Assembly: GCF_024055795.1 (NCBI RefSeq)
Contig: NZ_JAMXMY010000001.1
Span: 744,001-808,000, forward strand
Direction of reading: 5' to 3'
DNA from: Actinoallomurus purpureus
GTDB taxonomy: Bacteria; Actinomycetota; Actinomycetes; Streptosporangiales; Streptosporangiaceae
DNA length: 64,000 nt
The notes below the pieces were generated by a model. That model worked only from the letters and a program-made list of their open reading frames with translations. It was not told the origin of the DNA and did no database searches. This document shows, in pieces, positions 35,772-52,754 of the stretch; position 1 is the stretch's first letter, and each line of letters begins with the position of its first letter. The position numbers and the translations under genes were made by a program.

Positions 35772-36165
35772 ATGAACGTTACCATCGAAGCCATGGTGAT
35801 TGATGAGTTGACGCACGCAGCCGTCGAGCAGTTCCTGAACGAGCGAGCACAGCAGCCTCGCCGGCGAACCGCGCGCTGGTGGAATGGATCAGGGAGCACA
35901 ACCGCGTGCGGCCTCCGGCCGAGCAGCCGCGGGCGTGACGGTCGACAGGGACTACGGCAACAAGTACGCCGACTTTCGCCCGGCCCCTGGAACGTGCAGG
36001 TTCGGCCTGATGCCACCAGGTCCCCTCGCGAAGGATGCGGGCGTCAATGAGGACGGCGCCGGCCTCCGCGCGGCGGTCTTCAACCGCGGGGCCGAGTCCC
36101 GTGAAGAGGTCGACGCCCTCCTCAGCCTTGACCGCCCACCCCGGCCGACAGCGCCGATCAGGTAG
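35772..36165 (+). pseudogene. Degenerate glyoxalase/VOC-family gene
   Basis: The plus-strand ATG 35772 begins MNVTIEAMVIDELTHAAVEQ. Later, at about 35937-36165, a frame reads YGNKYADFRPAPGTCRFGLM then AGVNEDGAGLRAAVFNRGAE and SREEVDALL, the second half of actinomycete VOC proteins. The join between them is not colinear, so the gene appears internally deleted. It would have been the first gene under the divergent MerR promoter. The rest of the gap to 36292 holds nothing else. Confidence 0.55.
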
Positions 36166-36292
36166 ACAGGGGACCGTTGCCGCGACCGCGCTGACGGGGG
36201 AGAACCGGTCGTACTGCTCAAGGCTGGTCAGATCGAGCCAGGCGACGCCGACGGAGCCGCGAAGGCGGCCCCGCCTAAAAGATGGAGACACG

Positions 36293-38689
<2,397 letters not shown>

Positions 38690-38697
38690 GGCGAGAG

Positions 38698-38719
38698 GAG
38701 CGAAAGCTCGCTTTCGCTC
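38698..38719. terminator. Hairpin behind the UvrA-like gene
   Basis: Perfect 10-bp arms GAGCGAAAGC and GCTTTCGCTC with a 2-nt centre, 9 bp after the stop codon. No T-tract. It probably terminates the UvrA-like transcript. Confidence 0.65.
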
Positions 38720-38907
38720 CCGAGCCGATTGAGCTTGTAAGAGGCGCCGCAGGCGCCGAACACCTGACCGAGGCCCTCGCGGACACCACAGAAAGCCCCA
38801 GCCGTACGACTGGGGGAGGTGCTCCGGACTTGCCAGGCGGCCATCGGAAGTGGGTGTCGCGGACGCGCAGGGGCGGGTAGCCGGTGGGGCCGAGCTGGGC
38901 GAGCTCT

Positions 38908-38941
38908 CCCTCGACGTCGACGTCGACGTCGACGTCGAGGG
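38908..38941. repeat. Palindromic GACGTC tandem repeat
   Basis: CCCTCGACGTC at the left and GACGTCGAGGG at the right frame further TCGACG units, giving a 34-bp perfect palindrome between convergent genes. It can fold as a long hairpin. It may act as a terminator or be a replication-slippage repeat. Confidence 0.6.
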
Positions 38942-38953
38942 AGCCGAACATCG

Positions 38954-40396
38954 TCATTGAAACCGAGGGGAAGGGCGTTTCTCGCCCCCGGGCTGTGCGA
39001 TGAGCCGCCAGGCGCAGAGCGCACCGATGAGATAGACGACGCCGACGAGCAGGAACGAGGCCGAGGCGCCCTGGTACCAGTCGTGTGCGACGTGCAGCAC
39101 GGCACCGACCGCCGCGACGCCGACAAGCGAGCCGAGCTGGCGGTTGGCGTTCAGCATCGAACCGCCGATGTTGGCGTGTTCGCGTCCCGCCGCGTCCACC
39201 AGGGCCGCCGTCATGGCGGGAGCGATGACCCCGGCTCCGACGTTGGCGACCCCGATGACGACGGCCATCACCCAGTAGGGGGTGCCGGGTGACACCCCGA
39301 TCATGGAGATGGACGCCACTCCGGCTACGAGAAGGAAGACCGTGAGCAGCGTGCCGTTCGTGAATCTCGCGGAGACCCGGGAGAACACGACGTTGGCCAG
39401 CGGAAAGGAGAAGGTCACCGGCAGCAGCTCCAGCCCGGCCCGGAACGGGCTGGCACCTCGCGCGTGCTGGAAGAACAGGCCGAGCATGAAGAGATTGCCG
39501 AACAGGGCGAGGTTGAAGAGAAAACCGACGGCGTTGGCCCCGGAGAAGCAGGGGTCTCGGAACAGCGCCCAGGGCATGATCGGGTTATCGGTACGGCGTT
39601 CGCGTGCCACCAGCAGTCCGGTGGCGATGACGCCCACGGCGAACGCCACAAGGACCGACGCGGCGTACCAGCCCAGATGAGGTCCTTCGATCAGCGCGTA
39701 GCTCAGCGCGGCGAGCGCGGTGATCCACACGATGTGCCCGGGCACGGCCAGTCTTGTGGAGCGGCCGGCGGCGGGGGCGATGTGGCGATGCGTCATCAGC
39801 ATGCCGACAAGGCCGATCGGCAGGTTCAGCAGAAAGACACTTCGCCAGCCGAGCGCGTTGACCACGATGCCGCCGATCGTCGGCCCGAACCCGGCCGAAG
39901 CCGCCACGATGGCGGACCACAGACCCAGCATCCTCGTGCGCTCCCGCCGATCAGGGAAGGAGTACACGAGCAAGGCCAGGGAACTCGGCATGAACAGCGC
40001 GGCCCCGGCCCCCTGGACGAGCCGAGCGCCGATGAGCGCGCCACCGCTGGGAGCGAGCGCGCACGCCAGGGATGCGACGAAGAAGACCCCCATGCCTCTC
40101 ATGTACGCGGTCTTCGCGCCCACGCGGTTGGCCACGCCACCCCCGAGGAGCAGCAGCGAGGCGAAGGTGAGGACGTAGCCGTCCACAACCCAGGTGAGCT
40201 CGGTGAGCGTGGTGTGCAGCCGTGCCTGGATCGTCGCTCCGGCGACGTTCACCACGGTGATGTCCAGGCTCGCCATGACGAATCCGGTGGCAAGTGCGGT
40301 GATCTTGATCTTGCCGGAGGTCGCCCGCCCGGCAGAGGCAATGTCGTCTGCTCCCCGCACGCTGCCAGCCCCGGCCTTCTCATTTAGTCGCGACAT
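38954..40396 (-). CDS. MFS drug exporter, DHA2 (EmrB/QacA) type, 14 TM
   Basis: 480 residues from ATG 40396, 5 bp after AGGAG; a longer frame is rejected. Motif A/C regions: LDITVVNVAGATIQ in TM1, GGGVANRVGAKTAYMRGMGV, LVQGAGAALFMPSSLALL and GFGPTIGGIVVNALGWRSVF (motif C, antiporter type). The 14-helix layout includes two extra central helices (VWITALAALSYALIEGP, VLVAFAVGVIATGLLVA). It exports a drug or metabolite by proton antiport. It is convergent with the UvrA-like gene and is possibly part of the same resistance group. Confidence 0.9.
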   Translation of the reverse strand: MSRLNEKAGAGSVRGADDIASAGRATSGKIKITALATGFVMASLDITVVNVAGATIQARLHTTLTELTWVVDGYVLTFASLLLLGGGVANRVGAKTAYMRGMGVFFVASLACALAPSGGALIGARLVQGAGAALFMPSSLALLVYSFPDRRERTRMLGLWSAIVAASAGFGPTIGGIVVNALGWRSVFLLNLPIGLVGMLMTHRHIAPAAGRSTRLAVPGHIVWITALAALSYALIEGPHLGWYAASVLVAFAVGVIATGLLVARERRTDNPIMPWALFRDPCFSGANAVGFLFNLALFGNLFMLGLFFQHARGASPFRAGLELLPVTFSFPLANVVFSRVSARFTNGTLLTVFLLVAGVASISMIGVSPGTPYWVMAVVIGVANVGAGVIAPAMTAALVDAAGREHANIGGSMLNANRQLGSLVGVAAVGAVLHVAHDWYQGASASFLLVGVVYLIGALCAWRLIAQPGGEKRPSPRFQ

Positions 40397-40921
40397 TACG
40401 CTCCTACCCAACTCAATGCATCGATATTTGTCAATGACAACGAGAGTGGATTGAGTCCTTCCTCGACCGATGGCCGGGATCGCCAACGCAGCCGACGTGC
40501 CGCGCTCAGGCCTTCGGGCCATCGGCCGATCCGAGGGCGTGAGACGGGCCGGCTCGCAGGCCGACTCAAACCCGTAACGGCAGCCCAAGTAGGCCGCTCG
40601 GTGGCGACATAGTCGTGATTCATCTACTTATCCGACTAGGGTCATTTCCAATACTATTACTATTTACACCAGTAAATCACTTGCGGGCTGGCACGTTCCA
40701 CTCCGATCGCGACACCATGCTACAGAAGGACAAAAAGGGAGAATATCGCCCTAGATGCGACAGGGCTGGCATTACCGCCTCATACGTCACTGGCGAGAGC
40801 TTACATGCCTGCAAGAAGCAGTGTTTGTCACTGGTGGTTGAATTGCCATCACGGTATGTGATTCAAGAAAACCTTCTGTGAGTAATTGACATGACTATTG
40901 GGCTGATCTAGCTTCGGCGGC
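40397..40921. other. AT-richer regulatory gap between MFS and XRE genes
   Basis: This 525-bp stretch is markedly less GC-rich than the surroundings, especially 40610-40900. No gene is recognised; short open frames lack domains. It must hold the MFS promoter and holds the XRE promoter at 40886-40914. Its composition suggests acquired or strongly regulated DNA. Confidence 0.5.
40886..40914 (+). promoter_or_regulatory. Consensus-like promoter of the XRE regulator
   Basis: TTGACA (40886-40891), 17 bp, TAGCTT (40909-40914). The expected start is 6-8 bp later at about 40921, next to the GTG start at 40922. Translation would be leaderless. Confidence 0.7.
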
Positions 40922-41764
40922 GTGACATCCGAACACTCAAGAGTGGATGGTCAAGGTACGAGACGAGAGGCGCTACGCCATTTTCTTCGGTCCCGCAGAG
41001 CTCGTATTTCTCCGGGCGATGTAGGGCTACCGGAGGCCGGCCGACGTCATACACCGGGTCTGCGTCGCGAGGAGGTCGCCGTGCTGGCCGGGGTGAGCGC
41101 CTCGTGGTACACGTGGCTCGAACAGGGTCGGGACATCCAAGTCTCCAATGGCGTTCTCGATGCAGTCGGCGGTGCCCTGCGACTGGACTCCACGGAGCGA
41201 GCACACCTGTACCGACTCGCCGGCAAACTGCCGCCACCAGCGATGACGGCGCCTACTGGAGTCACGCCCCATCTCCAGCGAGTCGTCGACGGATGGCTTC
41301 CGGCGCCCGCCTATGTCGTTGATCGCTACTGGAACACATTGGCCGCGAACGCGATCGCGCGTTCGGTTCTCGGCATCGACGACACGGACTACAACTACCT
41401 CTCGGCGTTCTTTACAGATCCGCTGACCGAAAGCCGGTATCCACAGTGGAACGAAATCGCGGTGCAGCTCGTCGGCCAGTTCCGTGTCCAGGCGGCACGT
41501 TTCCCAGACGATCCGAGCTTCGATCGAATGGCCAGGAAGCTTTCCTCGACCAGTCCACGCTTCGCCGAACTCTGGGCACGGCACGAGATAAGAGATTGCG
41601 AGATGAGTAACGTCGAGGTCCGGTGCCCCGACCAGAGGATCCTTTCTTTCGAGCACATCTCTCTCGGCTTCGTCGAACGCGTCGACTTCAGGATCATGCT
41701 CTACACGCCACGCACCGGGGCGAACGTGAGCCCTGAATTGCAGCAGCTGACCGGAACACTCTGA
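40922..41764 (+). CDS. XRE-family regulator with MmyB-like ligand-binding domain
   Basis: 280 residues from GTG 40922. The N-terminal helix-turn-helix reads ALRHFLRSRRARISPGDVGL, RRHTPGLRREEVAVLAGVSA and SWYTWLEQGRDIQVSNGVLD. The C-terminal PAS-like MmyB domain starts GWLPAPAYVVDRYWNTLAAN and ends with FRIMLYTPRTG. In this family the C-domain binds fatty-acid-like ligands. It immediately precedes the AvrD/KAS III operon, whose product could be acyl-derived, so it is a plausible sensor for that pathway. Confidence 0.9.
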   Translation: MTSEHSRVDGQGTRREALRHFLRSRRARISPGDVGLPEAGRRHTPGLRREEVAVLAGVSASWYTWLEQGRDIQVSNGVLDAVGGALRLDSTERAHLYRLAGKLPPPAMTAPTGVTPHLQRVVDGWLPAPAYVVDRYWNTLAANAIARSVLGIDDTDYNYLSAFFTDPLTESRYPQWNEIAVQLVGQFRVQAARFPDDPSFDRMARKLSSTSPRFAELWARHEIRDCEMSNVEVRCPDQRILSFEHISLGFVERVDFRIMLYTPRTGANVSPELQQLTGTL

Positions 41765-41925
41765 CCTCGGCCATCACCCCTCGTATCACAATCCCTGCGT
41801 TTATCACGCCACCCACTGATCGGCGGACATCAGGTTGGCACCCAATGGGCGGTGCTCTCACGCATGCCTCTTCCCGCAAATAATTCCCGGGCTATCGGAC
41901 GGTCACATCAAGGAGACATACCGAG

Positions 41926-42579
41926 ATGACAGAAGCCAATGGAACTCGGCGGATCGGCCTCCTCGGCGCCGGCAACATCGGGCGACCGATCGGCCGGCAC
42001 TGGCTGGCGGCCGGACACACCGTCACGTTCGGCTCGCGCTCCCCGCAACGACTGGCCTCGTTCATCGGGCCACTGGGGCCGGGCGCACGAGCGGCGTCGT
42101 ACGCCGATGCGGCGACGGCCGGCGACGTCGTCATGCTCGCGGTCCCGTACCAGGCGCTGGACGAGCTGCTCGACACGGTCCGCGACCGGTTGGCCGGAAA
42201 GATAGTCATCGACGCGGCCAACCCGATGGGCCTGTCTCCGGACGGACGCATCATCTCCACGCTGGAGCCGGGCGTGACCCAGGGGCGCCGCACCGCCGAC
42301 CTGCTGCCCGGCAGCACTGTCGTCAGGGCGTTCACCCATGTCATGGACGAGCTGCTGTGGTCGCGCGGAACACGGCAACGGCACTTCTGGGGCATGGCCC
42401 TCGCCGGCGACGACGCCGAGGCCAAGGACCTGGTCTCGAACCTGATCCTCGACGCGGGGTTCACCCCGGTAGACCTGGGCGGTTTGGAAAACTCCTCGGC
42501 ACTGGACCCGGGTGGGCCGATCTTCCCGCACATGTTCACCCCGGCGGATCTGCGAGCCACGGTCACGCTCGTCGGCTGA
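41926..42579 (+). CDS. F420-dependent NADP reductase-like oxidoreductase
   Basis: 217 residues from ATG 41926, preceded by AAGGAGAC. The Rossmann start RIGLLGAGNIGRPIGRHWLA and HTVTFGSRSP (2'-phosphate-binding Arg, favouring NADP) match the NADPH:F420 oxidoreductase/NADP-binding family (Fno-like). DVVMLAVPYQALDELLD and IVIDAANPMG follow. Many members are not F420 enzymes but reduce or epimerise small carbonyl compounds, so the cofactor partner is uncertain. It is the first gene of the seven-gene operon and could carry out a redox step on the lipid or sugar precursor. Confidence 0.85.
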   Translation: MTEANGTRRIGLLGAGNIGRPIGRHWLAAGHTVTFGSRSPQRLASFIGPLGPGARAASYADAATAGDVVMLAVPYQALDELLDTVRDRLAGKIVIDAANPMGLSPDGRIISTLEPGVTQGRRTADLLPGSTVVRAFTHVMDELLWSRGTRQRHFWGMALAGDDAEAKDLVSNLILDAGFTPVDLGGLENSSALDPGGPIFPHMFTPADLRATVTLVG

Positions 42580-42623
42580 CGGTGACGCCCTGATGGCCCC
42601 ACGGAACGGAAGGAAGGATCCTC

Positions 42624-43796
42624 ATGGCGACCACCCCCGTCCTCTCCACCTCCACGGCCCCGCTGTTCACCACGTTCACGGTGGGCTCCCTGACGCTGGA
42701 CAACCGGATCGTCATGGCCCCCATGACCAGAGAGCTCTCACCGGACGGCGTGCCTGGGCCCGATGCGGCCGCCTACTACGCCCGCCGGGCGGAGAACGGC
42801 GTCGGGCTGATCATCACCGAAGGCACGGTCATCGACCACCCGGCCTCGGCGAGCAGCGATGCGATTCCCCGATTCCACGGCGAGGACGCGCTCGCCGGAT
42901 GGGCGGACGTCGTGCGGGCGGTGCACGCCGCGGGCAGCCGGATAGCGCCACAGCTCTGGCATGTCGGCCTGGACCCGCTGCTGTGGGGGGCCGCGCCGCG
43001 GACCCGGCGCGCGATGCCGGGCGATGTCCGCCCGATCAGCCCCTCCGGAGTCGATCCGGACGCAGTGGCGGACGACTCGAGCGCAGACCTCCAGACGGTA
43101 GGCCGCCCGATGAGCGAATCCGAGATCGCCGATGTCATCGACGCGTTCGCGCGGGCGGCCGCCGATGCTCGCCGCATCGGCTTCGACGGGATCGAGCTGC
43201 ATGCGGCCCATGGCTACCTCATCGACCAGTTCTTCTGGGATGTGACGAACCGGCGTACCGATCGTTACAACGGCGGCGTGGCCGACCGCGCCCGCTTCGG
43301 CGCCGAGATCGTACAGGCCTGCCGGCGGGCGGTCGGCCCCGGTTTTCCGATCAGCCTCCGCTTCTCCCAATGGAAGGTCGGTCACTACAACACCCGGCTC
43401 GCGAACGATCCGGCGCAGCTGGAGGCGTTCCTTGCTCCGCTCGTGGACGCCGGCGTCGACCTGTTCCACTGCTCGACCCGCCGGTTCTGGCTCCCGGAGT
43501 TCGACGGGTCCGCTCTCAACCTGGCGGGCTGGGTGAAGAAGCTCACCGGGAAGCCGACGATCACTGTCGGATCGGTCGGTCTCAGGGACAGCGACTTCCT
43601 GACCTATCTGGACGGCAAGGGCGCCGAGACCGGCGATGTCAACGCGGTCACCGAACGGCTGGAGCGGGGGGAGTTCGACCTCGTCGCCGTCGGACGCTCG
43701 CTGATCGCCGACCCGGCGTGGCCGATCAAGATCCGTGAAGGCCGGCTGGACGACCTCATCGACTTCCGAGCCGACATGCTCAGGACGCTCGACTGA
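42624..43796 (+). CDS. Old yellow enzyme-type NADH:flavin oxidoreductase
   Basis: 390 residues from ATG 42624, with AAGGAAGG upstream. The FMN barrel shows LDNRIVMAPMTRELSPDGVP, YYARRAENGVGLIITEGTVI, APQLWHVG, GFDGIELHAAHGYLIDQFFW and FDLVAVGRSLIADPAW. The substrate-binding His pair typical of ene-reductases maps to HAAHGYL. OYEs reduce activated C=C bonds. In a butenolide-type pathway such an enzyme would saturate the ring double bond, as the butenolide reductase does in A-factor synthesis (analogy only). It is separated by 44 bp from the previous gene. Confidence 0.93.
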   Translation: MATTPVLSTSTAPLFTTFTVGSLTLDNRIVMAPMTRELSPDGVPGPDAAAYYARRAENGVGLIITEGTVIDHPASASSDAIPRFHGEDALAGWADVVRAVHAAGSRIAPQLWHVGLDPLLWGAAPRTRRAMPGDVRPISPSGVDPDAVADDSSADLQTVGRPMSESEIADVIDAFARAAADARRIGFDGIELHAAHGYLIDQFFWDVTNRRTDRYNGGVADRARFGAEIVQACRRAVGPGFPISLRFSQWKVGHYNTRLANDPAQLEAFLAPLVDAGVDLFHCSTRRFWLPEFDGSALNLAGWVKKLTGKPTITVGSVGLRDSDFLTYLDGKGAETGDVNAVTERLERGEFDLVAVGRSLIADPAWPIKIREGRLDDLIDFRADMLRTLD

Positions 43797-43949
43797 GGCA
43801 GAGCGTGCATTCCGTGGCCGATGCGCGGAGCGGCGATCGTGGTGGCCACACCACCACCCGGTCCGGTGCTACCAGAACCCGCCCCTGGAATCCACGATTT
43901 CATTTCTTGATACTCAAACTCACAGGCGCCTACCAGAAAAGGACTCTAC

Positions 43950-44411
43950 GTGGACGACCAGTCACTCCGTGACCGCTTCGAGATCATAGAGATCTGCACG
44001 CGAATGGCGTGGCATCTAGATCATTGTGATTGGGAGCCGTTGCTCGAACTTTTCACTGACGACGTATCCCTCGACTACAGCAGCCTCAACGGCGGAGAGC
44101 CGCAGATCGTCTCACGCAAGGACATGGTCGAAAAATGGCGAGGCAATCGAGAAGGGCTCACGGCGACGCAGCACCTGGTGTCCAACCAGTTGGTGAGCGT
44201 CGACGGTAACACGGGAACGGCGACCGCCATGTTCCAGGCGACGCACCTTCTCCCCAACCCATACGGAGCGCCGACCTGGACTCTTGGGGGTGAGTACCGA
44301 TACGGCCTGATCCGCACGGAAGGCGGTTGGCGGATCAACGCCCTGGCGATGACCATCATCTGGGCGGACGGCAATCGCAATATCAGAGACCTCGCCACCC
44401 AAGGAAGCTGA
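43950..44411 (+). CDS. SnoaL/NTF2-like protein
   Basis: 153 residues from GTG 43950, 8 bp after AAAGGA. NTF2 fold: IIEICTRMAWHLDHCDWEPL, LFTDDVSLDYSSLNGGE and GEYRYGLIRTEGGWRINALA. Polar residues (D24, H23, H84 region) line the expected pocket, as in scytalone dehydratase or SnoaL cyclases. Such proteins catalyse dehydration, cyclisation or isomerisation of keto compounds. Within this operon a cyclisation or dehydration step is plausible. No direct evidence of activity exists. Confidence 0.85.
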   Translation: MDDQSLRDRFEIIEICTRMAWHLDHCDWEPLLELFTDDVSLDYSSLNGGEPQIVSRKDMVEKWRGNREGLTATQHLVSNQLVSVDGNTGTATAMFQATHLLPNPYGAPTWTLGGEYRYGLIRTEGGWRINALAMTIIWADGNRNIRDLATQGS

Positions 44412-44519
44412 GGCCGTCCGTGCACACCGTCACCCTCGCCCGGGATCGTTGGCCGCCTCCGTGACGCCCTGTTCTCACGGCTCCGAAAGCGGCCCATGCC
44501 GACTGTCCTGGAGGGCGAC

Positions 44520-45542
44520 ATGACCACCAAAGATGCGGCGTCCACAGAGGTTGCCGGCGCCTCTATCGATGAGTTCCTCGGACCGAGAGAATGGCGCTTC
44601 TTCGGCGAAGGATTCAAACGGGCGCGGCATCGGATGAGCGCCGTTCGAATCACCATCGGCGCGGACGGCTCAGGACAGATCGAGTCTCGTGCCTCAGTGG
44701 CCTATCCGGCGGACTGGTCGCGCAAGGGCGACGTCGACCAGCGTCCGCATCTGAGTACGATCGATGTCATCGTCATCGGCGCGCAGCTGGGCGAGATGTA
44801 TCTGGCCCACACTCGCCGGCTCGACCGCGAACAGCGCCGTCGGATGGCGGTACGGCGGATCAGGGTCAAGGCAGGGAGGCGGCCGGTCGAGGACGACCTG
44901 TCGGGCTTTCCGGCGACCGCCCACGTCTCAGGGCCCCTGGCGCGGTGCCGGAACGGCCATGACCTTCTCACCACCACCGTCGAGTGCACCGTCGCGACCA
45001 TGCGGGTCCAGCTCGAGATCTGCCACGAGGCGGGGCGCCCCGATCCGGGGCCCGGCTCCTACGGGTCGCCGCAGGTACTTCTCGGCGATGCCGGGTCACG
45101 TCTGTTCGGCGCGGGCTACAAGGTCAGGCGGCAACTGGTCGAGAACGTCGATGTCGATCCGACAGCCCAGACGGCGCGAGCCGTCGTGCGAGTCCTACTC
45201 GATGCCGGAGCGACGGCCCCGGACGAGGGGCTGGAGGGCGAGCACCGGGCATCCGCAACAGTGATCGACTGTTTCGTGGCGGGGCTCCAACTCGGGCAGG
45301 TGCTGCTGTACGAACTGGACGGAGTCCCCCGGGCGCGGAGTAACACACTGTGGATGCGGCGCACCGTTCTGGAATGCGCGGCGCCGCGCCCGGCGCTCGA
45401 GAACCCGACGCCCGTCATCGCCTTCCTGGACGATGTCCGACTGCTGAAGAACAGCAAGGCAGAGACCTGGCGCTCCGCCGACATCGTCGCGGAGCTGAAC
45501 GGAATCAGCATGCGCTGCTCCGTCGTCCATCTCCTTTCGTGA
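44520..45542 (+). CDS. AvrD-family protein (syringolide-synthase-like)
   Basis: 340 residues from ATG 44520, with GGAGGGCGAC directly upstream; an ATG at 44496 lacks one. The N-terminal pattern IDEFLGPREWRFFGEGFKRA, then VAYPADWSRKG and RPHLSTIDVIVIGAQLGEMY, is that of Pseudomonas AvrD. The second half repeats the first: LFGAGYKVRRQLV, ATVIDCFVAGLQLGQVLLYE, NTLWMRRTV. AvrD makes syringolides from a beta-ketoacyl chain and a pentulose. The tandem arrangement recalls AfsA-type proteins, which condense beta-ketoacyl chains with a C3 sugar phosphate. Here it is the probable committing enzyme of the operon. The family call is confident; the product is inferred. Confidence 0.82.
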   Translation: MTTKDAASTEVAGASIDEFLGPREWRFFGEGFKRARHRMSAVRITIGADGSGQIESRASVAYPADWSRKGDVDQRPHLSTIDVIVIGAQLGEMYLAHTRRLDREQRRRMAVRRIRVKAGRRPVEDDLSGFPATAHVSGPLARCRNGHDLLTTTVECTVATMRVQLEICHEAGRPDPGPGSYGSPQVLLGDAGSRLFGAGYKVRRQLVENVDVDPTAQTARAVVRVLLDAGATAPDEGLEGEHRASATVIDCFVAGLQLGQVLLYELDGVPRARSNTLWMRRTVLECAAPRPALENPTPVIAFLDDVRLLKNSKAETWRSADIVAELNGISMRCSVVHLLS

Positions 45543-45611
45543 CGGCGCACGCGGGAAGCTCAACCTCGACCGAGACTAATCCAACGGACGATCCGATGAG
45601 GGAGAAAGAAA

Positions 45612-46316
45612 TTGAAACTGGCGATCTCTGGAACCTATTCGGTCGGAAAGACCATCACCACCATGGCGGTATCTCATCTCACCGGCATTCCGCGCAGTGC
45701 CGCCCTGACGATGCGCGAGCTGTTGCCGATCTCGGTTCCGGGAAAGACTCTCGAAGAGTGCACCGCGCCGGAGATAATCATGCTTATCATGCGCCGCAAT
45801 CAGGTGCGTGCGGTGAACGAAAGCCACCTACCCGACGGCTTCGTCTCCGATGGGTCGTCACTGCACGAGTGGTGCTACGGCACCGTCCGCGTCCTGGTCG
45901 GCATCAATCCCAACGAATCCGCGCACGTCGACTCCGTGGAGATGACGGATGAGATCCGGTTCTACGCGGGTGTCCTGGAGCAGATGGGCATACCGGCCCG
46001 GCAACACGCCAAGGCCGCTTACGACGCGTTCGTCCACCTCCCCATCGAGTTCCCTCTCGTAAAAGACGGCCATCGTCCGGTGAATGAGCGGTTCCGTGCC
46101 CTGGCCGATGAAATGTTGCTCAAGGTTATCGACGACCTGCAGATACCGGTACAAATCGTCGGCGGATCCATTCCAGAGCGCTTGGAAAAGATCATGGATA
46201 TCTTCGGCTTCACGGCCCGGATGAGCATCGATGAGGCCATCGAACGAGCCCAGCAGGACTACGCGAAGATCGACACGACCCCGGAAACCGCCCGCGTCCC
46301 GGCCACGGCGCAATGA
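45612..46316 (+). CDS. P-loop nucleotide kinase-like protein
   Basis: 234 residues from TTG 45612, with GGAG upstream at about 8 bp. Walker A is in MKLAISGTYSVGKTITTMAV. A lid and base region follow with FVSDGSSLHEWCYGTVRVLV, and a late PVQIVGGSIPERLEKIM strand-helix. It resembles NadR-type or AAA_28 kinases in actinomycete biosynthetic clusters. A closely related architecture occurs at 59606-60151. The substrate could be a sugar or nucleoside; within the operon it might phosphorylate the sugar partner of AvrD. The end overlaps the KAS III start (ATGA), so it is certainly part of the operon. Confidence 0.8.
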   Translation: MKLAISGTYSVGKTITTMAVSHLTGIPRSAALTMRELLPISVPGKTLEECTAPEIIMLIMRRNQVRAVNESHLPDGFVSDGSSLHEWCYGTVRVLVGINPNESAHVDSVEMTDEIRFYAGVLEQMGIPARQHAKAAYDAFVHLPIEFPLVKDGHRPVNERFRALADEMLLKVIDDLQIPVQIVGGSIPERLEKIMDIFGFTARMSIDEAIERAQQDYAKIDTTPETARVPATAQ

Positions 46317-47311
46317 CCCGGGCGGCCGTCCTCTCCGGGTTGGGCACGGCGCTTCCACCTCGTCTGGTGACCAACGACGAACTGTCGCTTCGGCTGAACA
46401 CATCCGACGAATGGATACGGTCCAGAACCGGAATCGGGCAGCGTTACTGGACGGACCGGATGGCGACGAGCGACCTCGCCGTGGATGCCGGTCGCCGCGC
46501 GCTGAAGGCCGCGGACACCGACCTGGTCGACCTCGTGGTGCTCGCCACCACCACTCCCGACCATCCGTGCCCGGCCACCGCACCGGACGTCGCCGCGCGT
46601 CTCGGGCTCGGCCCGGTGGCGGCCTTCGACGTCGCGGCCGTCTGCAGTGGTTTCGTATACGGCCTGGCCACCGCGGCCGCCCACGTCGAAGCGAGACTCG
46701 CGGAACGGGCGCTGGTGATCGGCGCCGAGACGTTCTCCACCATTCTCGACCCGGGCGACCGCAGCACCTCGATCATTTTCGGTGATGGCGCCGGCGCCGT
46801 GATCCTGCGGGCCGGCCACGACGACGAGCCCGGAGCGCTTCTCGAATCCGATCTCGGGAGCGACGGATCATTGAAGGAACTCATCCGCATTCCCGGCGGC
46901 GGTTCACGTCAGCGGACCACGTCGGCCGACTCGGACCTCGCGTCCGGCCATCTGACAATGGACGGCAGAGCCGTCTTTCGCCATGCGGTCATGCGGATGG
47001 CCGAATCGGCGCGGACCCTTCTCGCACGGACGGGCTGGGGCCCCGCATCGGTCGACTGCTTCGTGGCCCACCAGGCCAACGTCCGTATCCTGCACGCCGT
47101 GGCCGACCAGCTCGGAATCGACCGGGACCGCACTGTGGTCGACCTCGACCGGGTGGGCAACACCTCCGCGGCATCCATCCCCCTGGCACTGTCACGTGCA
47201 GCCGAGACCGGTCGGCTCATGCCCGGTCATCGTGTCCTGCTGAGCGCCTTCGGCGCCGGAGCGACGTGGGGTTCCATCGCGCTGACCTGGCCTGACATCA
47301 CCGCAGACTGA
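46313..47311 (+). CDS. FabH-like beta-ketoacyl-ACP synthase III
   Basis: 332 residues with the KAS III triad: Cys111 in FDVAAVCSGFVYGL, His253 in CFVAHQANVRI and Asn283 in RVGNTSAASIPLAL. Other family marks are NTSDEWIRSRTGIGQRYW and IIFGDGAGAVIL. It condenses an acyl-CoA with malonyl-ACP to a beta-ketoacyl-ACP. The malonyl carrier is presumably the ACP encoded 57 bp downstream. Its place directly before a lone ACP and after AvrD suggests it supplies the beta-ketoacyl chain for AvrD, not bulk fatty acid synthesis. Confidence 0.93.
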   Translation: MTRAAVLSGLGTALPPRLVTNDELSLRLNTSDEWIRSRTGIGQRYWTDRMATSDLAVDAGRRALKAADTDLVDLVVLATTTPDHPCPATAPDVAARLGLGPVAAFDVAAVCSGFVYGLATAAAHVEARLAERALVIGAETFSTILDPGDRSTSIIFGDGAGAVILRAGHDDEPGALLESDLGSDGSLKELIRIPGGGSRQRTTSADSDLASGHLTMDGRAVFRHAVMRMAESARTLLARTGWGPASVDCFVAHQANVRILHAVADQLGIDRDRTVVDLDRVGNTSAASIPLALSRAAETGRLMPGHRVLLSAFGAGATWGSIALTWPDITAD

Positions 47312-47368
47312 GATCGAGAAACCGTCCGGCACCTTGAGGCGGAAACCGCGTACCGAAGGAGACACGTC

Positions 47369-47611
47369 ATGGCCGACTCCGTTGCCGAGCGCATCATCGC
47401 CGTCATGGCCGAGAACCTTCAGATGGCCGCAGCTGGGATCACACCGGCCACCGTGTTCGACGACCTGGAATTCGACTCTCTCGTCCTTGTGGAACTCGCG
47501 GTGATCCTGCAGCGAGAATTCGGCGTTGAGGTCAGCGACGATGAACTGGCAGAGAGCAAGACCGTCGGGAAGGCGGCCGCCCTCGTGAACGAAAGGATCG
47601 CCGCGGCCTGA
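47369..47611 (+). CDS. Acyl carrier protein
   Basis: 80 residues from ATG 47369 with AAGGAGAC upstream. The phosphopantetheine site is Ser37 in LEFDSLVLVELAV. Helices II-III read ILQREFGVEVSDDELAES. It is the dedicated carrier of the operon, acting with the KAS III. It is the last gene before the hairpin terminator. Confidence 0.95.
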   Translation: MADSVAERIIAVMAENLQMAAAGITPATVFDDLEFDSLVLVELAVILQREFGVEVSDDELAESKTVGKAAALVNERIAAA

Positions 47612-47626
47612 ACCCACCGTCGCCCG

Positions 47627-47659
47627 ACCCGGCTCGTCGACAACGCCGACGAGCCGGGT
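47627..47659. terminator. Operon-terminating hairpin after the ACP gene
   Basis: Perfect 13-bp arms ACCCGGCTCGTCG (47627-47639) and CGACGAGCCGGGT (47647-47659) with a 7-nt loop, 16 bp after the ACP stop. It lacks a T-tract, as usual in actinomycetes. It closes the 41.9-47.6 kb operon. The following 200 bp hold no gene. Confidence 0.8.
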
Positions 47660-47867
47660 GTCGCCGATCCCGCGCTCGTAGAACATCCCAGAGCCGTCGT
47701 ACGCCGCGGCCGGCTTCTTCGGAGCGGAACGAGGCGGCGATCAGGGCTGCGACGATCGGCGGCCGCGCCGTCAGGGCCGCCTGGCTTTCGTGGTTCAGGG
47801 CCGCCAGGTCGCCCTGGAGGGAGCCGGTGTCCTGGGGCTGCCAGTCATCGTCACTCGCCGCTTCCGG

Positions 47868-48062
47868 TCAGTCCTCGATCTGGATGGCCAGCGCCGGGCA
47901 CACCACCGCGGCCTGCCGGACATCGGCGGCCAGTTCCGCCGGGGGATGCTCGTTGAGCAGCACCACGACGCCGTCCTCGTCACGCTGGTCGAACACGTCC
48001 GCGGCGCTGGTGACGCACTGACCGGACGCGACGCACTTCTCCTGGTCGATGGTGACGCGCAT
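47868..48062 (-). CDS. [3Fe-4S] ferredoxin
   Basis: 64 residues from ATG 48062, with AGGAG upstream. Cys10 and Cys16 in EKCVASGQCV and Cys55 in VVCPALAI give the three-Cys pattern of P450-associated 3Fe-4S ferredoxins (SoyB/FdxD type). It starts 27 bp behind the P450 gene and is probably its electron donor. Confidence 0.95.
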   Translation of the reverse strand: MRVTIDQEKCVASGQCVTSAADVFDQRDEDGVVVLLNEHPPAELAADVRQAAVVCPALAIQIED

Positions 48063-48089
48063 GGGATTCTCCTGTTCGTTCTTCTGGGA

Positions 48090-49313
48090 TCACCAGGTGA
48101 CGGGGAGTTCGTAGACCCCGTAGACGGATCCGTCGTGCTTGAACGGGATCTGGTCCAGATCGGTGGCGCGTTTCAGGGTGGGGATGCGCCTGTAGAGGGT
48201 GCTGTAGACGACCTGCAGCTCCATGCGGGCCAGTGTCTGGCCCAGGCACTGGTGGACGCCGAAGCCGAAGGCGACGTGGTGGCGGGCGTCGCGCCGGATG
48301 TCCAGCTGATCGGGTTCTTCGAAGGCGCCGGGGTCACGGTTGCCGATGTCGTTCGGCACGATCAGGCCCTCGCCGGCGCGGATGGTCTGGCCGGCGACCT
48401 CGATGTCCTCAAGCACCGCCCGCCGTCGCCCGTTGTGGGTGATGTGCAGGTAGCGGAGCAGTTCCTCCACGGCCGAGGCGACCAGTTTCGGGTCGTCGGT
48501 GTCGCGCAGCAGGGCCAGCTGGTCGGGGTGTTCCAGCAGGGCCAGGGTGCCCAGGGCGATCATGTTCGCGGTGGTCTCGTGGCCGGCGATCAGCAGCAGC
48601 ACGCCCATCTGCGCCGCGTCCTGCCGGGTCAGCTCGCCGGCCTTGATGCGCTCGGTCAGTCCGGACAGCAGGTCCTCGGCAGGGCGGTCGAGCTTCTCAT
48701 CCACCAGCCGGTCCAGGTAGCCGGTGAGGTTCTTGCTCGCCGTCATCCGCTGTTCGGGCGTCGCGGTCCGCCTGATGATGGTCTTGCTGTTGTCCTGGAA
48801 GAAGTCGTGGTCGGAGTACGGCACGCCGAGCAGGTCGCAGATGACCAGGGAGGGAACGGGCAGCGCGAACGACTCCACCAGGTCCACCGGCTTCGGACCG
48901 GCCAGCATGTCGTCGATCAACCCGTCCACGATCTTCTGCACCGCCGAGCGCATGGCCTCGATCCGCTTGACGGCGAACGGGGCGGTCACCATCCGGCGCA
49001 GCCGGGCGTGTTCGGGATCGTCCATCAGGATGAAACCGATCTTCGAGCCGCCCGGTTGGATCGGCGCCGGGCTCGGGTAGCCGGGGCGCTCGACATCGGA
49101 GCTGACCCGCCGGTCGGCCAGCACCGTCCGCTGGTCGGCATAGCGGGTCACCAGCCACGGGGTGCTGCCGTCCCACAACCGGACCTTGGTCAGCGGGCCC
49201 TTCCGCTGTTCGGCGAGCAGGTCGGGGGGCGGATCGAACGGGCAGCCGGCCGCCCTGGTCATCGGGTACTCCGGGATTTCGGCCGGCTCCGGGCCGGTCG
49301 GTGTGCTGGTCAT
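48090..49313 (-). CDS. Cytochrome P450 (CYP105-like)
   Basis: 407 residues from ATG 49313. I-helix LLLIAGHETTANMIALG (acid-alcohol pair replaced by E-T, as is common), ExxR in EELLRYLHI, and heme loop FGFGVHQCLGQTLARMEL with the Cys ligand. The N-terminus reads PMTRAAGCPFDPPPDLL, typical of CYP105 relatives. It is a soluble class I P450 and is followed by its ferredoxin. It may hydroxylate a secondary metabolite, possibly the product of the adjacent AvrD operon, which is convergent with it. Confidence 0.93.
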   Translation of the reverse strand: MTSTPTGPEPAEIPEYPMTRAAGCPFDPPPDLLAEQRKGPLTKVRLWDGSTPWLVTRYADQRTVLADRRVSSDVERPGYPSPAPIQPGGSKIGFILMDDPEHARLRRMVTAPFAVKRIEAMRSAVQKIVDGLIDDMLAGPKPVDLVESFALPVPSLVICDLLGVPYSDHDFFQDNSKTIIRRTATPEQRMTASKNLTGYLDRLVDEKLDRPAEDLLSGLTERIKAGELTRQDAAQMGVLLLIAGHETTANMIALGTLALLEHPDQLALLRDTDDPKLVASAVEELLRYLHITHNGRRRAVLEDIEVAGQTIRAGEGLIVPNDIGNRDPGAFEEPDQLDIRRDARHHVAFGFGVHQCLGQTLARMELQVVYSTLYRRIPTLKRATDLDQIPFKHDGSVYGVYELPVTW

Positions 49314-49331
49314 CTGAACCCTCCGAGGAAA

Positions 49332-49358
49332 CCCCGCCCTTCAGACTTCAGGGCGGGG
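49332..49358. repeat. IS605-type left-end hairpin
   Basis: Arms CCCCGCCCT (49332-49340) and AGGGCGGGG (49350-49358), 9-nt loop. Such subterminal hairpins are recognised as single strands by TnpA. Confidence 0.7.
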
Positions 49359-49475
49359 AGGAATCGGACCCCTGCGGAGCAGGGCAGGGAGAGCCGAATC
49401 GCCGCCACGGCGATTCGGCGTCCACCGCCCGAACACCCGCAGACGATCACACACTGACGCTATAGTTTGCGGACT

Positions 49476-50771
49476 GTGATCACCCACGTGAAGCGTGCTT
49501 TCAAGTACCGCTTCTATCCCACCGATGCGCAGGCAGCGGAGCTGTCGCGCACGTTCGGGTGCGTGCGGAAGGTCTACAACATGGCGCTCACGGTCCGCAC
49601 CGAGGCCTGGACGTTGCGCCAAGAACACGTCGGCTACAACGCCACCTCCGCGATGCTGACGGCATGGAAGAAGACCGAGGAACTGGCCTACCTCAACGAG
49701 GTGTCCTCGGTCCCGCTCCAGCAGGCGCTGCGGCACCTGCAAACCGCGTTCACGAACTTCTTCGCCAAGCGGGCCAGGTATCCGCGTTTTAAGGCGAAGA
49801 AGAAGTCCCGCAAGTCCGCCGAGTACACCACCAGCGCGTTCCGCTTCCGGGACGGAAAGCTGACGCTGGCGAAGATGACGCAGCCGCTCGACATCGTGTG
49901 GTCTCGTCCCCTTCCCGAGGGCGCAAAGCCCTCGACGGTGACCGTGTCCCAGGATGCGGCCGGACGCTGGTTCGTTTCCCTGCTGTGCCAAGACCCCGGC
50001 GTCAAGCCGTTGCTTGCGAACGGCAACGCCATCGGGGTCGATGCCGGGCTGGAGCATCTGCTGACGTTGTCCACCGGGGAGAAGATCGCCAATCCCCGGC
50101 ACGAGCGCCGGGACCGTGCCCGGCTCGCCCGCGCTGCGCGGGAGCTGTCCCGAAAGGCCAAGGGGGATGGTTCCAAGGCCAAGGGGGATGGTTCCAACCG
50201 GGCCAAGGCCCGGCGTAAGGTCGCCCGGATCCACGCGCGGATCGCCGACCGGCGCCGTGATGCCCTGCACAAGCTCACCACTCGGCTCGTCCGCGAAAAC
50301 CAAGTGGTCGTGATCGAGGATCTGACCGTTCGGAATCTGCTGAAGAATGGCCATCTGGCCCGTGCCATCTCCGATGCCGCGTGGTCGCAGTTCCGCAACA
50401 TGGTGGAGTACAAAGCGCAGTGGTACGGCCGCGAAGTGATCGTGGTCGACCGCTGGTTCCCTTCCTCCAAGCTGTGCTCCGTCTGTGGCACCTTGGCGGA
50501 CAAGATGCCCCTGAACGTCCGCACCTGGACGTGCGAGTGCGGCACGACCCACGATCGGGACGTGAACGCAGCCAAGAACATCCTGGCCGCCGGGCTGGCG
50601 GTGTCGGCCTGTGGAGCCGGTGTAAGACCTCAACGGAGTTCTCCGGATGGGGCTGTCGGCGCTGAAGCAGGAAGCCCTACGGCGCGAGCCGTAGGAATCC
50701 CCCTCGTTTACGAGGGGGAGGAAGTCAACGTTGATGCTCCTCCTCCGAGTCGTCGTCATGAGCCGGGGTGA
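49476..50771 (+). CDS. tnpB: TnpB RNA-guided nuclease (OrfB)
   Basis: About 431 residues from GTG 49476, 10 bp after TATAGT and so probably leaderless. It has the N-terminal AFKYRFYPTDAQAAELSRTF pattern. RuvC-like residues are D in AIGVDAGLEHLL, E in VVVIEDLTVRNLL and D in THDRDVNAAKNILA, with a zinc ribbon CSVCG...CECG between. All catalytic positions are present. A tandem 21-bp duplication inserts a second KAKGDGS. The last 45 codons run through the right-end hairpins, where the guide (omega) RNA is usually encoded. Confidence 0.92.
   Translation: MITHVKRAFKYRFYPTDAQAAELSRTFGCVRKVYNMALTVRTEAWTLRQEHVGYNATSAMLTAWKKTEELAYLNEVSSVPLQQALRHLQTAFTNFFAKRARYPRFKAKKKSRKSAEYTTSAFRFRDGKLTLAKMTQPLDIVWSRPLPEGAKPSTVTVSQDAAGRWFVSLLCQDPGVKPLLANGNAIGVDAGLEHLLTLSTGEKIANPRHERRDRARLARAARELSRKAKGDGSKAKGDGSNRAKARRKVARIHARIADRRRDALHKLTTRLVRENQVVVIEDLTVRNLLKNGHLARAISDAAWSQFRNMVEYKAQWYGREVIVVDRWFPSSKLCSVCGTLADKMPLNVRTWTCECGTTHDRDVNAAKNILAAGLAVSACGAGVRPQRSSPDGAVGAEAGSPTARAVGIPLVYEGEEVNVDAPPPSRRHEPG
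50154..50195 (+). repeat. Exact 21-bp tandem duplication inside tnpB
   Basis: The unit AAGGCCAAGGGGGATGGTTC plus C occurs twice without mismatch, adding seven residues in frame. It looks recent. Confidence 0.85.
50676..50718 (+). ncRNA. Right-end hairpins, probable omega-RNA 3' region
   Basis: Two consecutive hairpins (50676-50695 and 50699-50718) overlap the 3' end of the tnpB frame. In IS605 elements this region yields the guide RNA scaffold, with the guide derived from flanking DNA beyond the element edge. The RNA extent is not determinable from sequence alone. Confidence 0.5.
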
Positions 50772-51405
50772 CCGGGGCCAGTAGCAGCCCGACGATCGCG
50801 TCGATCAGGCCGGTCGCCGCGTCATGCCAGCTGGCCCGGGTGGTGGGCGTGCCCTCGGCGAGAGCGCGTTCGCGCTCTGCGGTCACGTGCACCATCAGCT
50901 GGCGGATCATCTCGTCGCGTTCGGCACGCACTTCGACCGGCAGTTCGGGAAGGCACCGGTTCAGCCCGTCCAGGGCCCGCTGGAGCGACGGCGCGCCCAA
51001 TGACTCCACGATCATGATCGTGCGCAGCTCGGGGTCGGTCATCACCTGCGCGCCGAACCGGGCGAACCAGCTGGGGCGGGTCAGCGAGGCCAGATGCTCG
51101 GTCGTCGGGCGCACCAGGCAGGTGACCCAGTCCCGCAGGTCCATCGAGCCGGCGGCCTCGGCCACCAGCCGCATGCGTATCCGCTCGATGTCCTCCGTGT
51201 GCCTGCGCACGATCGCGCGGACCAGATCGGTCTTGGTGCCGAAGTGGTAGCCGACCGCCGCAGTGTTGCCCTGGCCCGCGGCCTCGCTGATCTGGCGGTT
51301 GGACACCGCGAACACCCCGTGCTCGGCGAACAATCGCTCCGCCGCGGCCAGGATCGACTCACGTGTCGCCTGCACCCGCTCGGCCCGTGCCGTTCCACCA
51401 GGCAT
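50725..51405 (-). CDS. TetR-family repressor
   Basis: 226 residues from ATG 51405; the AGGAG of GGTGAGGAG lies 6 bp upstream and overlaps the stop of the P450 gene. The DNA-binding domain reads RESILAAAERLFAEHGVFAV and IAEAAGQGNTAAVGYHFGTKTD-like (ISEAAGQGNTAAVGYHFGTK). The ligand domain is about 150 residues. It lies 10 bp behind the second P450 and probably regulates that operon and the divergent MFS exporter. The IS right end lies directly behind it, so the last residues may come from IS sequence. Confidence 0.92.
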   Translation of the reverse strand: MPGGTARAERVQATRESILAAAERLFAEHGVFAVSNRQISEAAGQGNTAAVGYHFGTKTDLVRAIVRRHTEDIERIRMRLVAEAAGSMDLRDWVTCLVRPTTEHLASLTRPSWFARFGAQVMTDPELRTIMIVESLGAPSLQRALDGLNRCLPELPVEVRAERDEMIRQLMVHVTAERERALAEGTPTTRASWHDAATGLIDAIVGLLLAPVTPAHDDDSEEEHQR

Positions 51406-51415
51406 GATCATCTCC

Positions 51416-52633
51416 TCACCATCGCACCGGCAGGCTGCGCAGCCCGCCGACGACCAGTCCGTCAACGCGCTCTAGATTCTCCGCCGGGACGACGAGCGTC
51501 AGTGACGGGAGCCGGTCCAGCAGCACGCCGAGGACGGTCTGCAGTTCGGTGCGGGCCAGTGACTGCCCGAGGCAGGAGTGCGCCCCGGCACCGAAGGCCA
51601 GGTGCGGGTTCGGGTTGCGGGCCAGGTCCATCTCGTCGGCGCCGTCGAAGGCGGTCTCGTCCCGGTTGGCCGCGGCCATGTCGCACAGCACGGTGGTGCC
51701 GCCGGTGATCAGTGCGTCGCCGATCTCGACGTCCTGGTCGATGTAGCGGACCATGCCGAGCCCCAGATTGGTGTCGAAGCGCAGGGCCTCCTCCACCGCG
51801 GAACGGATCAGCGACCGGTCGGCCAGCAGCCGCTCCCAGCGCCGCCGGTCGGCCAGCAGCATGGCCACCATCTTCGCGATCATGTTCGCGGTGGTCTCGT
51901 GCCCCGCGACCAGCAGGCCCTGGCCGGTGGCCACGAGTTCCGCCTCGGACAGGCCCCGGCCCTCGGCGTCGGTCGCGACGATCAGTTCGCTCAGCAGGTC
52001 GTCGCTCGGCTCGGCCCGGCGGGCGGCGATGTGGCCCGCCATGTACGCGTTGAACTCCGCCTGGGCGGTGTCCACCTGCTCCTGGGTGTAACGGGTCAGG
52101 TTCAGCATGCTGTCCGACCAGTGGGCGAACCGGTCCCGGTCGGCCTCGGGGACGCCGAGCAGATCGCAGATCACCCACACGGGCAGCGGGAACGCCAGGC
52201 TCGCCTTGAGGTCCGCCGGCTTGCCGTCCTCCACCATCGTGTCGATGAGCCGGTGGGCCATGGCCTCGATCCGCGGTCGCAGCGCCGTCATCCGCCTGGC
52301 GGTGAACCACTTGCCCACCAGCCGCCGCCACCGCAGGTGAGCCTCGCCGGCCTGGGGGAGCACGGTGGCCATCTCGTTGTTGAACACGCCGCCGGATTCG
52401 GTGTCGGAGAGCCGGGCCGCGTCGGGCGCGTCGAGCCGTCGGCCGAACCGCGAATCGGACAGCACCTGCTTGACATCCGCGTAGCGGGTGACCATCGACA
52501 CCTCGTCCCCGCTGGGCATCCTCACCCGCGCCACCGGGCACTGCCGGCGCAGCGCCGTCCATTCGGCCGGGGGCTCCAAGGCCGCCGGGCGGGGCAGCGG
52601 GTAGCTCAGCTTCTGCTCGTCGCCGTGGCTCAT
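51416..52633 (-). CDS. Cytochrome P450, second copy
   Basis: 405 residues from ATG 52633, with GGAGGT upstream. Key motifs: I-helix GLLVAGHETTANMIAKM, ExxR in VEEALRFDTNLG, heme loop FGAGAHSCLGQSLART. It is soluble and actinomycete-type. It forms an operon with the TetR gene. It has no ferredoxin of its own, so the ferredoxin at 47868 may serve both P450s. It probably oxidises a secondary metabolite or xenobiotic exported by the divergent MFS protein. Confidence 0.93.
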   Translation of the reverse strand: MSHGDEQKLSYPLPRPAALEPPAEWTALRRQCPVARVRMPSGDEVSMVTRYADVKQVLSDSRFGRRLDAPDAARLSDTESGGVFNNEMATVLPQAGEAHLRWRRLVGKWFTARRMTALRPRIEAMAHRLIDTMVEDGKPADLKASLAFPLPVWVICDLLGVPEADRDRFAHWSDSMLNLTRYTQEQVDTAQAEFNAYMAGHIAARRAEPSDDLLSELIVATDAEGRGLSEAELVATGQGLLVAGHETTANMIAKMVAMLLADRRRWERLLADRSLIRSAVEEALRFDTNLGLGMVRYIDQDVEIGDALITGGTTVLCDMAAANRDETAFDGADEMDLARNPNPHLAFGAGAHSCLGQSLARTELQTVLGVLLDRLPSLTLVVPAENLERVDGLVVGGLRSLPVRW

Positions 52634-52697
52634 GGTGACCTCCTGCCGAACCGATGTCGCCGATGTGGCCAGTGAACCCCCTCCGATACACTAAGTC

Positions 52698-52709
52698 AAT
52701 CAGTTGATT
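52698..52709. promoter_or_regulatory. Candidate TetR operator between P450 and MFS genes
   Basis: AATCAGTTGATT: 5-bp arms AATCA/TGATT around GT, inside an AT-rich block (52690-52718) of the 121-bp divergent gap. The position between P450 and MFS promoters fits control by the TetR protein of the P450 operon. Confidence 0.5.
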
Positions 52710-52754
52710 TAAATTTTTCGATTCGTGCACGTCACCGCCCCCGGAGGATCCGCC

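Follow-up and report, generated by a model that had tools for sequence, protein, structure and literature searches.

The methylenomycin (mmy) cluster, found on plasmid SCP1 of Streptomyces coelicolor and on two Streptomyces anthocyanicus plasmids (NZ_CP109276.1 and NZ_CP109103.1), is the closest described counterpart of the locus analyzed here, an AvrD-type operon in a 64,000-nucleotide stretch of Actinoallomurus purpureus DNA (contig NZ_JAMXMY010000001.1, positions 744,001 to 808,000), the whole of which we call the window. The recent description of this pathway counts 13 biosynthetic proteins and describes MmyD, E, O, F, T, A, and C (PMC12593393). The beta-ketoacyl-acyl carrier protein synthase III (KAS III) MmyC and the acyl carrier protein (ACP) MmyA give acetoacetyl-ACP, whose beta-ketoacyl group is joined to a pentulose by the AvrD protein MmyD, resulting in a butenolide; the following steps are assigned to MmyG, K, Q, Y, and X, the lactone is then opened by MmyT, MmyE dehydrates to the exomethylene, and MmyO/MmyF perform the last step, epoxidation (PMC12593393). 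Deletion of mmyD removes all methylenomycins, and deletion of mmyE leads to the accumulation of premethylenomycin C and its lactone. The same 2025 JACS paper names MmyG, K, Q, X, and Y as an open mid-pathway question and proposes mmyT, E, O, and F as later additions (PMC12593393). As for control, a motif named MARE is described as the binding site of MmfR/MmyR (PMC5625687 and PMC13307308).

Two further systems share part of this chemistry. The sphydrofuran cluster of S. ambofaciens has AvrD, KAS III, and ACP in common with the window but differs by aldo/keto reductases, a thioesterase, and monooxygenases, and, going by the names in its published gene list, none of its genes is of the Q, E, Y, or X type (PMC11195616). 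Aldo/keto reductases and a thioesterase of that type beside AvrD-KAS III-ACP do not occur in the window operon, where the Pfam families differ. The AvrD/syringolide system of Pseudomonas syringae shares the AvrD family. Among the literature matches listed, with subscription papers and supplements outside their scope, no title or abstract dealt with a reduced mmy cluster.

Results

All seven same-strand open reading frames (ORFs) that the original prediction placed at 41926..47659 were found, each with its family backed by Pfam (Table 1). That prediction knew of no such exact gene set; the set corresponds to a known pathway core, here unusually short. Judged by sequence, the seven genes are the counterparts of seven mmy biosynthetic genes, in almost the same order. 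Moreover, the unit exceeds these seven genes, as an MmyB-like regulator and a divergent Mmr-like exporter also belong to it, with the layout mmr (divergent), then mmyB-mmyQ-mmyE-mmyY-mmyD-mmyX-mmyC-mmyA. Altogether, the window encodes nine homologues of proteins from the mmy cluster of an S. anthocyanicus plasmid (locus L001), colinear or adjacent and with 54 to 82% identity.

A tblastn search of 72,556 plasmid records with the window AvrD matched 22 of them, topped by the two S. anthocyanicus plasmids (53.7 and 53.4% identity), and Pseudomonas AvrD showed 26 to 30% identity. Around the S. anthocyanicus AvrD gene lie, successively, genes for flavin reductase, NTF2-like, HTH, F420-reductase-like, NADH:flavin oxidoreductase, AvrD, and AAA proteins; then for KAS III, ACP, HAD, ATP-binding, major facilitator superfamily (MFS), HTH, Gfo/Idh, luciferase-family, and thioesterase proteins; and finally ScbR-, ScbA-, acyl-CoA-dehydrogenase-, and HAD-type genes and TetR. 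The letters B-Q-E-D-X-C-A-P-K, Y, F, J, G, O, and T were assigned to these genes from what we take to be the mmy gene order. The ScbR-type protein of L001 has the accession WP_011039544.1, which is that of S. coelicolor MmfR in PMC6335953.

The window has A, C, D, E, Q, X, Y, MmyB, and Mmr in common with the SCP1-type clusters, as well as the gene order B-Q-E-D-X-C-A. It differs from them by the absence of F, G, K, O, P, T, J, and mmfR/mmfLHP/mmyR, by the exporter upstream of B, by the apparent loss of half the presumed operator, and by Y within the operon, whereas mmyY in the five other mmy loci is divergent and paired with mmyF. A TTA codon is present in L001 mmyB but absent from the mmyB-like gene of the window. 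The mmy-type cluster of Amycolatopsis roodepoortensis (L013) shares all nine genes; as in the window, MmyG has no match there and no phosphatase gene adjoins that of MmyA. Unlike the window, it retains O, F, K, J, mmfR/L/H/P, and a T-like gene (40%), together with the full operator palindrome.

The co-occurrence of these genes was followed in 46 AvrD loci, i.e., the window, 35 recovered when genome contigs were scanned with an alignment, 4 from plasmids (drawn from the 22 matching records), and 6 from relatives; one of the latter (L048) and L017 come from one and the same Thermobifida cellulosilytica genome. A single-protein scan of the genome contigs with the window AvrD had found no relative. 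The loci span ~10 kb on each side, although several end near AvrD (L016 starts ~100 bases before the gene), and a few gene absences therefore cannot be judged. Of the 45 other loci, 5 (L001, L002, L012, L013, and L015) encode homologues that cover at least half the length of Q, E, and Y, always all three jointly. All five are mmy-type, and their Q, E, Y, and Mmr homologues reach at least 60% identity; for the exporter, this is 63 to 69%, against at most 32% in other AvrD loci. In the plasmid database, identities of at least 60% were restricted to 2 of 341 matching records for Q (next match, ~40%) and to 2 of 91 for Y (next match, 54%), in both cases the two S. anthocyanicus plasmids. In view of these restricted distributions, the operon does not represent a random assembly of widespread families. 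The 54% MmyY-like genes on other Streptomyces plasmids, considered as candidates, had unrelated surroundings in the two opened of the five listed.

The neighborhood is thus conserved outside this strain, in five other mmy-type loci. Among the window's relatives, AvrD was rare, being present in 7 of 297 genomes, its own included, and the MmyD homologue is the sole AvrD of its genome. In the AvrD tree (45 rows), the window and the five mmy MmyD proteins form one clade (support, 97/97), so that the protein groups with MmyD and not with a family of different proven reaction, and the reaction proposed for MmyD is the one originally guessed. A tree of D, X, C, and A (19 loci) also places the window inside the mmy clade (100/98). 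Within this clade, the AvrD tree puts the window outermost (94/76) and the four-protein tree Amycolatopsis (76/53). The window, Amycolatopsis, and Streptomyces are three lines of the mmy clade, which the two trees place in different order.

Upstream of mmyB, the five other mmy loci have the palindrome AAAACCTTC-NN-GAAGGTTTG running into TTGAC(A) (one mismatch in L015). In the window, the left arm AAAACCTTC is exact, the right arm has decayed, and TTGACA comes one base further on. This 9-mer occurs once in the 64 kb, against an expectation of 0.03, and 3 of 100 shuffled sequences attain this count. Of the simulated intergenic regions, 0.1% contain it, and none of 200,000 has it with TTGACA at the same spacing. 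The site is probably the remnant of a MARE-like repressor operator. We presume that the palindrome of the mmy loci is MARE, and we read the window as descending from an ancestor under furan control, in which loss of the repressors and signal genes would have been followed by that of an operator arm. The promoter elements named here were read by eye from the locus comparison; a sigma-70 consensus scan of 40300-47900 returned no promoter (mean of shuffles, 1.1), and a comparison of intergenic sequences between the window and four mmy loci revealed no convincing shared MmyB site.

The genome (9.25 Mb, 52 contigs, 97.9% complete) has the window inside a 1.0-Mb contig, and absences in the neighborhood are therefore not a contig-edge effect. 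Queries with mmyF, G, K, O, P, T, and J and with mmfR, L, H, P, and mmyR gave no orthologue in the window at an E value of 1e-3, where the only matches were MmyX (39% to K) and a luciferase-family protein (24% to O); up to an E value of 1, they added only pieces of 18 to 64 amino acids (E values, 0.18 to 0.98). The luciferase-family gene (56059-57024) was considered as MmyO and rejected at this identity. Seven of these genes (O, F, K, P, T, G, and mmfL) were also queried against the rest of the genome, where none had a good orthologue. The MmyO/MmyF epoxidation pair is missing from the window, with best genome matches of 29% over part of the length for O and 42% for F. Likewise, MmyT, MmyG, and MmyP, the last presumably the thirteenth biosynthetic protein, are missing from the window (best genome matches, 32, 33, and 34%, respectively), and so is MmyK, for which the genome search gave only the MmyX paralogue (40%). 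No part of the furan-signal cassette mmfR-mmfLHP-mmyR was found in the window; beyond it, mmfL was the cassette gene queried. As for an AfsA/gamma-butyrolactone system, the MmfL query detected no AfsA-type synthase in the window or genome at an E value of 1e-3 (a genome search without positive control), and mmfR/mmyR had no match in the window.

Table 1. Features of the mmy-like unit in the window (identities are to the S. anthocyanicus locus L001)
Feature	Position	Strand	Evidence
MFS exporter, Mmr homologue (methylenomycin efflux/resistance)	38954..40396	-	68.8% identity over 464 aa to L001 MFS
Left hairpin, ~10 nt past the Mmr-like stop, probable left end of unit	38906..38943	-
Putative MARE-like operator remnant running into TTGACA of presumed mmyB-like promoter	40868..40891	+	Comparison with five mmy loci
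MmyB-like Xre/MLTR activator	40922..41764	+	MLTR_LBD and HTH_31; 63.7% identity to L001 MmyB
MmyQ homologue, F420_oxidored-type NAD(P) reductase	41926..42579	+	Pfam 5e-21; 68.4% identity
MmyE homologue, old-yellow-enzyme-type flavoprotein (Oxidored_FMN)	42624..43796	+	Pfam 3.6e-61; 68.7% identity
MmyY homologue, SnoaL_4/NTF2-like	43950..44411	+	Pfam 2.5e-31; 72.8% identity
MmyD homologue, AvrD-type butenolide synthase	44520..45542	+	Pfam 1.3e-108 (scanned from 44496); 53.7% identity
MmyX homologue, AAA_28 P-loop kinase-like (GTYSVGKT)	45612..46316	+	Pfam 4.4e-07; 81.5% identity
MmyC homologue, KAS III (ACP_syn_III)	46313..47311	+	Beta-ketoacyl-ACP synthase 3 model, 384 bits; 73.1% identity
MmyA homologue, ACP (PP-binding), DSL serine motif	47369..47611	+	Pfam 5e-15; 55.7% identity
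Right hairpin, 13-bp perfect stem, 7-nt loop, probable right end of unit	47627..47659	+

The seven genes are separated, in order, by 44, 153, 108, 69, -4, and 57 nucleotides. The spacing of E-Y and Y-D is therefore not truly tight, as had been supposed for the whole operon, while the supposed overlap exists between X and C. The closing hairpin is perfect; the segment 47612-47672 folds at -31.5 kcal/mol (z, -4.09), and a perfect 13-bp stem with a 3- to 10-nucleotide loop occurs at four places in the 64 kb, including this one. At the other end, the left hairpin has a stem formed by CGACGT repeats (minus strand of 38890-38953, -40.5 kcal/mol; z, -4.08). The start of the AvrD gene is most likely 44520, preceded by GGAGGG, rather than 44496. 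The MmyQ homologue scored 69.7 bits against the NpdG model, below its cutoff of 149.8, and is not NpdG; "F420-NADP-reductase-like" is a fair label for it. Profile searches of solved structures matched neither AvrD at an E value of 1 nor the AAA_28 protein at 0.1.

On the left, the unit adjoins a UvrA-like gene (36035-38689, 884 amino acids; 680 bits against a UvrA equivalog cutoff of 729.8), with its own inverted repeat behind it (~38698-38719, read by eye); it could be a self-protection gene or unrelated to the cluster. On the right, a role in extra tailoring was considered for a P450/ferredoxin block (47868-52717) but rejected. Relatives G003 and G016 have the two P450s together with the ferredoxin, and G010 has the first P450. 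None of these three genomes had an AvrD match, and the block was excluded from the cluster because of these counterparts in relatives without AvrD.

Discussion

The locus is probably a reduced methylenomycin-type biosynthetic cluster, with every reaction and product extrapolated from the mmy pathway. We propose that the MmyB homologue switches the operon on and that the Mmr-like pump exports the product. MmyC and MmyA would make acetoacetyl-ACP, which MmyD would condense with a pentulose or its phosphate to give a butenolide; MmyX, MmyQ, and MmyY would convert the latter to a fused cyclopentenone lactone, and MmyE would introduce the exomethylene group, acting on the spontaneously opened acid. 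By homology, the first of these steps agree with the original suggestion that KAS III and ACP supply a beta-ketoacyl group that AvrD joins to a sugar. The HAAHGY motif is kept in the MmyE homologue (aligned to 12-oxophytodienoate reductase 3), and a redox role is thus possible. Since MmyO and MmyF are missing, the pathway would stop short of the epoxidation, yielding methylenomycin C and/or premethylenomycin C or its lactone instead of methylenomycin A. The functions of MmyT, K, P, and G may be dispensable, spontaneous, or taken over by housekeeping enzymes or MmyX, and furan-signal control would have been lost in this lineage.

Several points weigh against this proposal: (i) 6 of the 13 methylenomycin genes are missing, including those of the proposed mid-pathway proteins MmyG and MmyK, and the scaffold may therefore differ; (ii) without MmyT, the lactone opening that precedes MmyE in the published scheme has no assigned enzyme; (iii) among the nine proteins, the MmyD homologue shows the lowest conservation (54%), so that another acyl chain or sugar is possible; and (iv) with 52 contigs and 97.9% completeness, a missing gene could still lie elsewhere. 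For P, K, and the signal cassette, loss is favored because eight sister AvrD loci (L017-L023 and L047) have a HAD phosphatase and a second kinase after ACP and because the presumed operator half-site persists. O, F, and T may either have been lost in the window or gained later elsewhere.

A complete pathway could instead be split over the genome, with an unlinked monooxygenase/reductase pair, thioesterase, kinase, and phosphatase filling the gaps and methylenomycin A being made. Thioesterase and HAD homologues are indeed present, and contig C50 encodes a flavin reductase (43%) and, ~7 kb away, a luciferase-family protein (28%); this neighborhood was inspected as MmyO/MmyF but not accepted. However, MmyO is at least 83% identical among the five other mmy loci and 52 to 74% in the seven other AvrD loci having a match, against 29% over part of the length for the best match here, and no second kinase was matched, which makes a split pathway improbable. 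We also judge it unlikely that the locus is a decaying, nonfunctional remnant of a methylenomycin cluster, despite the loss of six biosynthetic genes, the signal/repressor cassette, and, apparently, half the presumed operator. The nine frames are open without internal stops, ribosome-binding-site-like sequences precede seven of them, and the P-loop, KAS III Cys, ACP Ser, and old yellow enzyme His-His motifs, with the meanings we presume for them, are all kept. Moreover, the window proteins and those of the Amycolatopsis cluster are about equally identical to the S. anthocyanicus proteins, Y has been relocated into the operon, and hairpins stand at both ends.

The original prediction raised the possibility of a syringolide- or butenolide-type signaling pathway. 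AfsA-type chemistry resembles that of AvrD, and by homology the butenolide chemistry stands. The signal role is very improbable, as Pseudomonas AvrD is only 26 to 30% identical to the window protein versus 54% for S. anthocyanicus MmyD, the AfsA-type MmfL found no match (again in a genome search without positive control), and a self-resistance-type exporter and an antibiotic-type, MmyB-like activator adjoin the operon.

Within the reduced-cluster interpretation, one extension is possible but doubtful, namely, that seven enzymes (A, C, D, E, Q, X, and Y) constitute a natural minimal pathway building a C9 cyclopentanoid, whose product would be either methylenomycin C or the lactone of premethylenomycin C, which is far more potent. 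If so, MmyG, K, P, and T would have accessory roles, and MmyE would predate T, O, and F or be independent of them, contradicting part of the acquisition order of the 2025 JACS paper. The window cluster bears on which mmy genes are needed and on the order of their gain or loss; a natural cluster with Q, X, Y, and E but without G, K, P, T, O, and F makes the mid-pathway question directly testable. It represents a methylenomycin-type lineage apparently outside Streptomyces and Amycolatopsis and apparently freed from furan-signal control.

Other AvrD loci

The AvrD loci comprised further arrangements. A second conserved cluster type, B..MFS..D-X-C-A-HAD-kinase without Q, E, and Y, occurs in Thermobifida and Streptomyces (L017 6441-14560, L018-L023, and L047). 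The clusters of T. cellulosilytica (L017) and several Streptomyces (L018-L023) share with the window the D-X-C-A order, related proteins, and an MmyB-family regulator, whereas they differ by lacking Q, E, and Y and by the HAD phosphatase and second kinase after ACP. In one of them, from S. griseorubiginosus (L019), an MmyO homologue (74%) at position 125, ~10 kb upstream of AvrD, is the closest among non-mmy AvrD loci.

In S. sp. NBC_00503 (L003 4962-14366), K. mediocidica (L014 1657-12432), and K. xanthocidica (L040 5262-12427), AvrD-KAS III-ACP stands beside pyruvate/branched-chain-type ketoacid dehydrogenase genes, with acetolactate synthase/ketol-acid reductoisomerase genes also present in the first two. 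This type is a candidate for the cluster of xanthocidin, a methylenomycin relative with an isopropyl group. The xanthocidin cluster itself was deferred to a later paper (PMC6256639). The K. mediocidica AvrD frame (L014 10019-12142) is open to 708 amino acids, across the KAS III gene in another frame, probably through a frameshift or altered stop and not as a fusion. Finally, six AvrD-KAS III loci with an MmyB-type gene (L025, L026, L030, L032, L034, and L049), most of which have a second, distant KAS III and an MFS gene ~6.5 to 10 kb downstream, resemble in their order the published sphydrofuran island.

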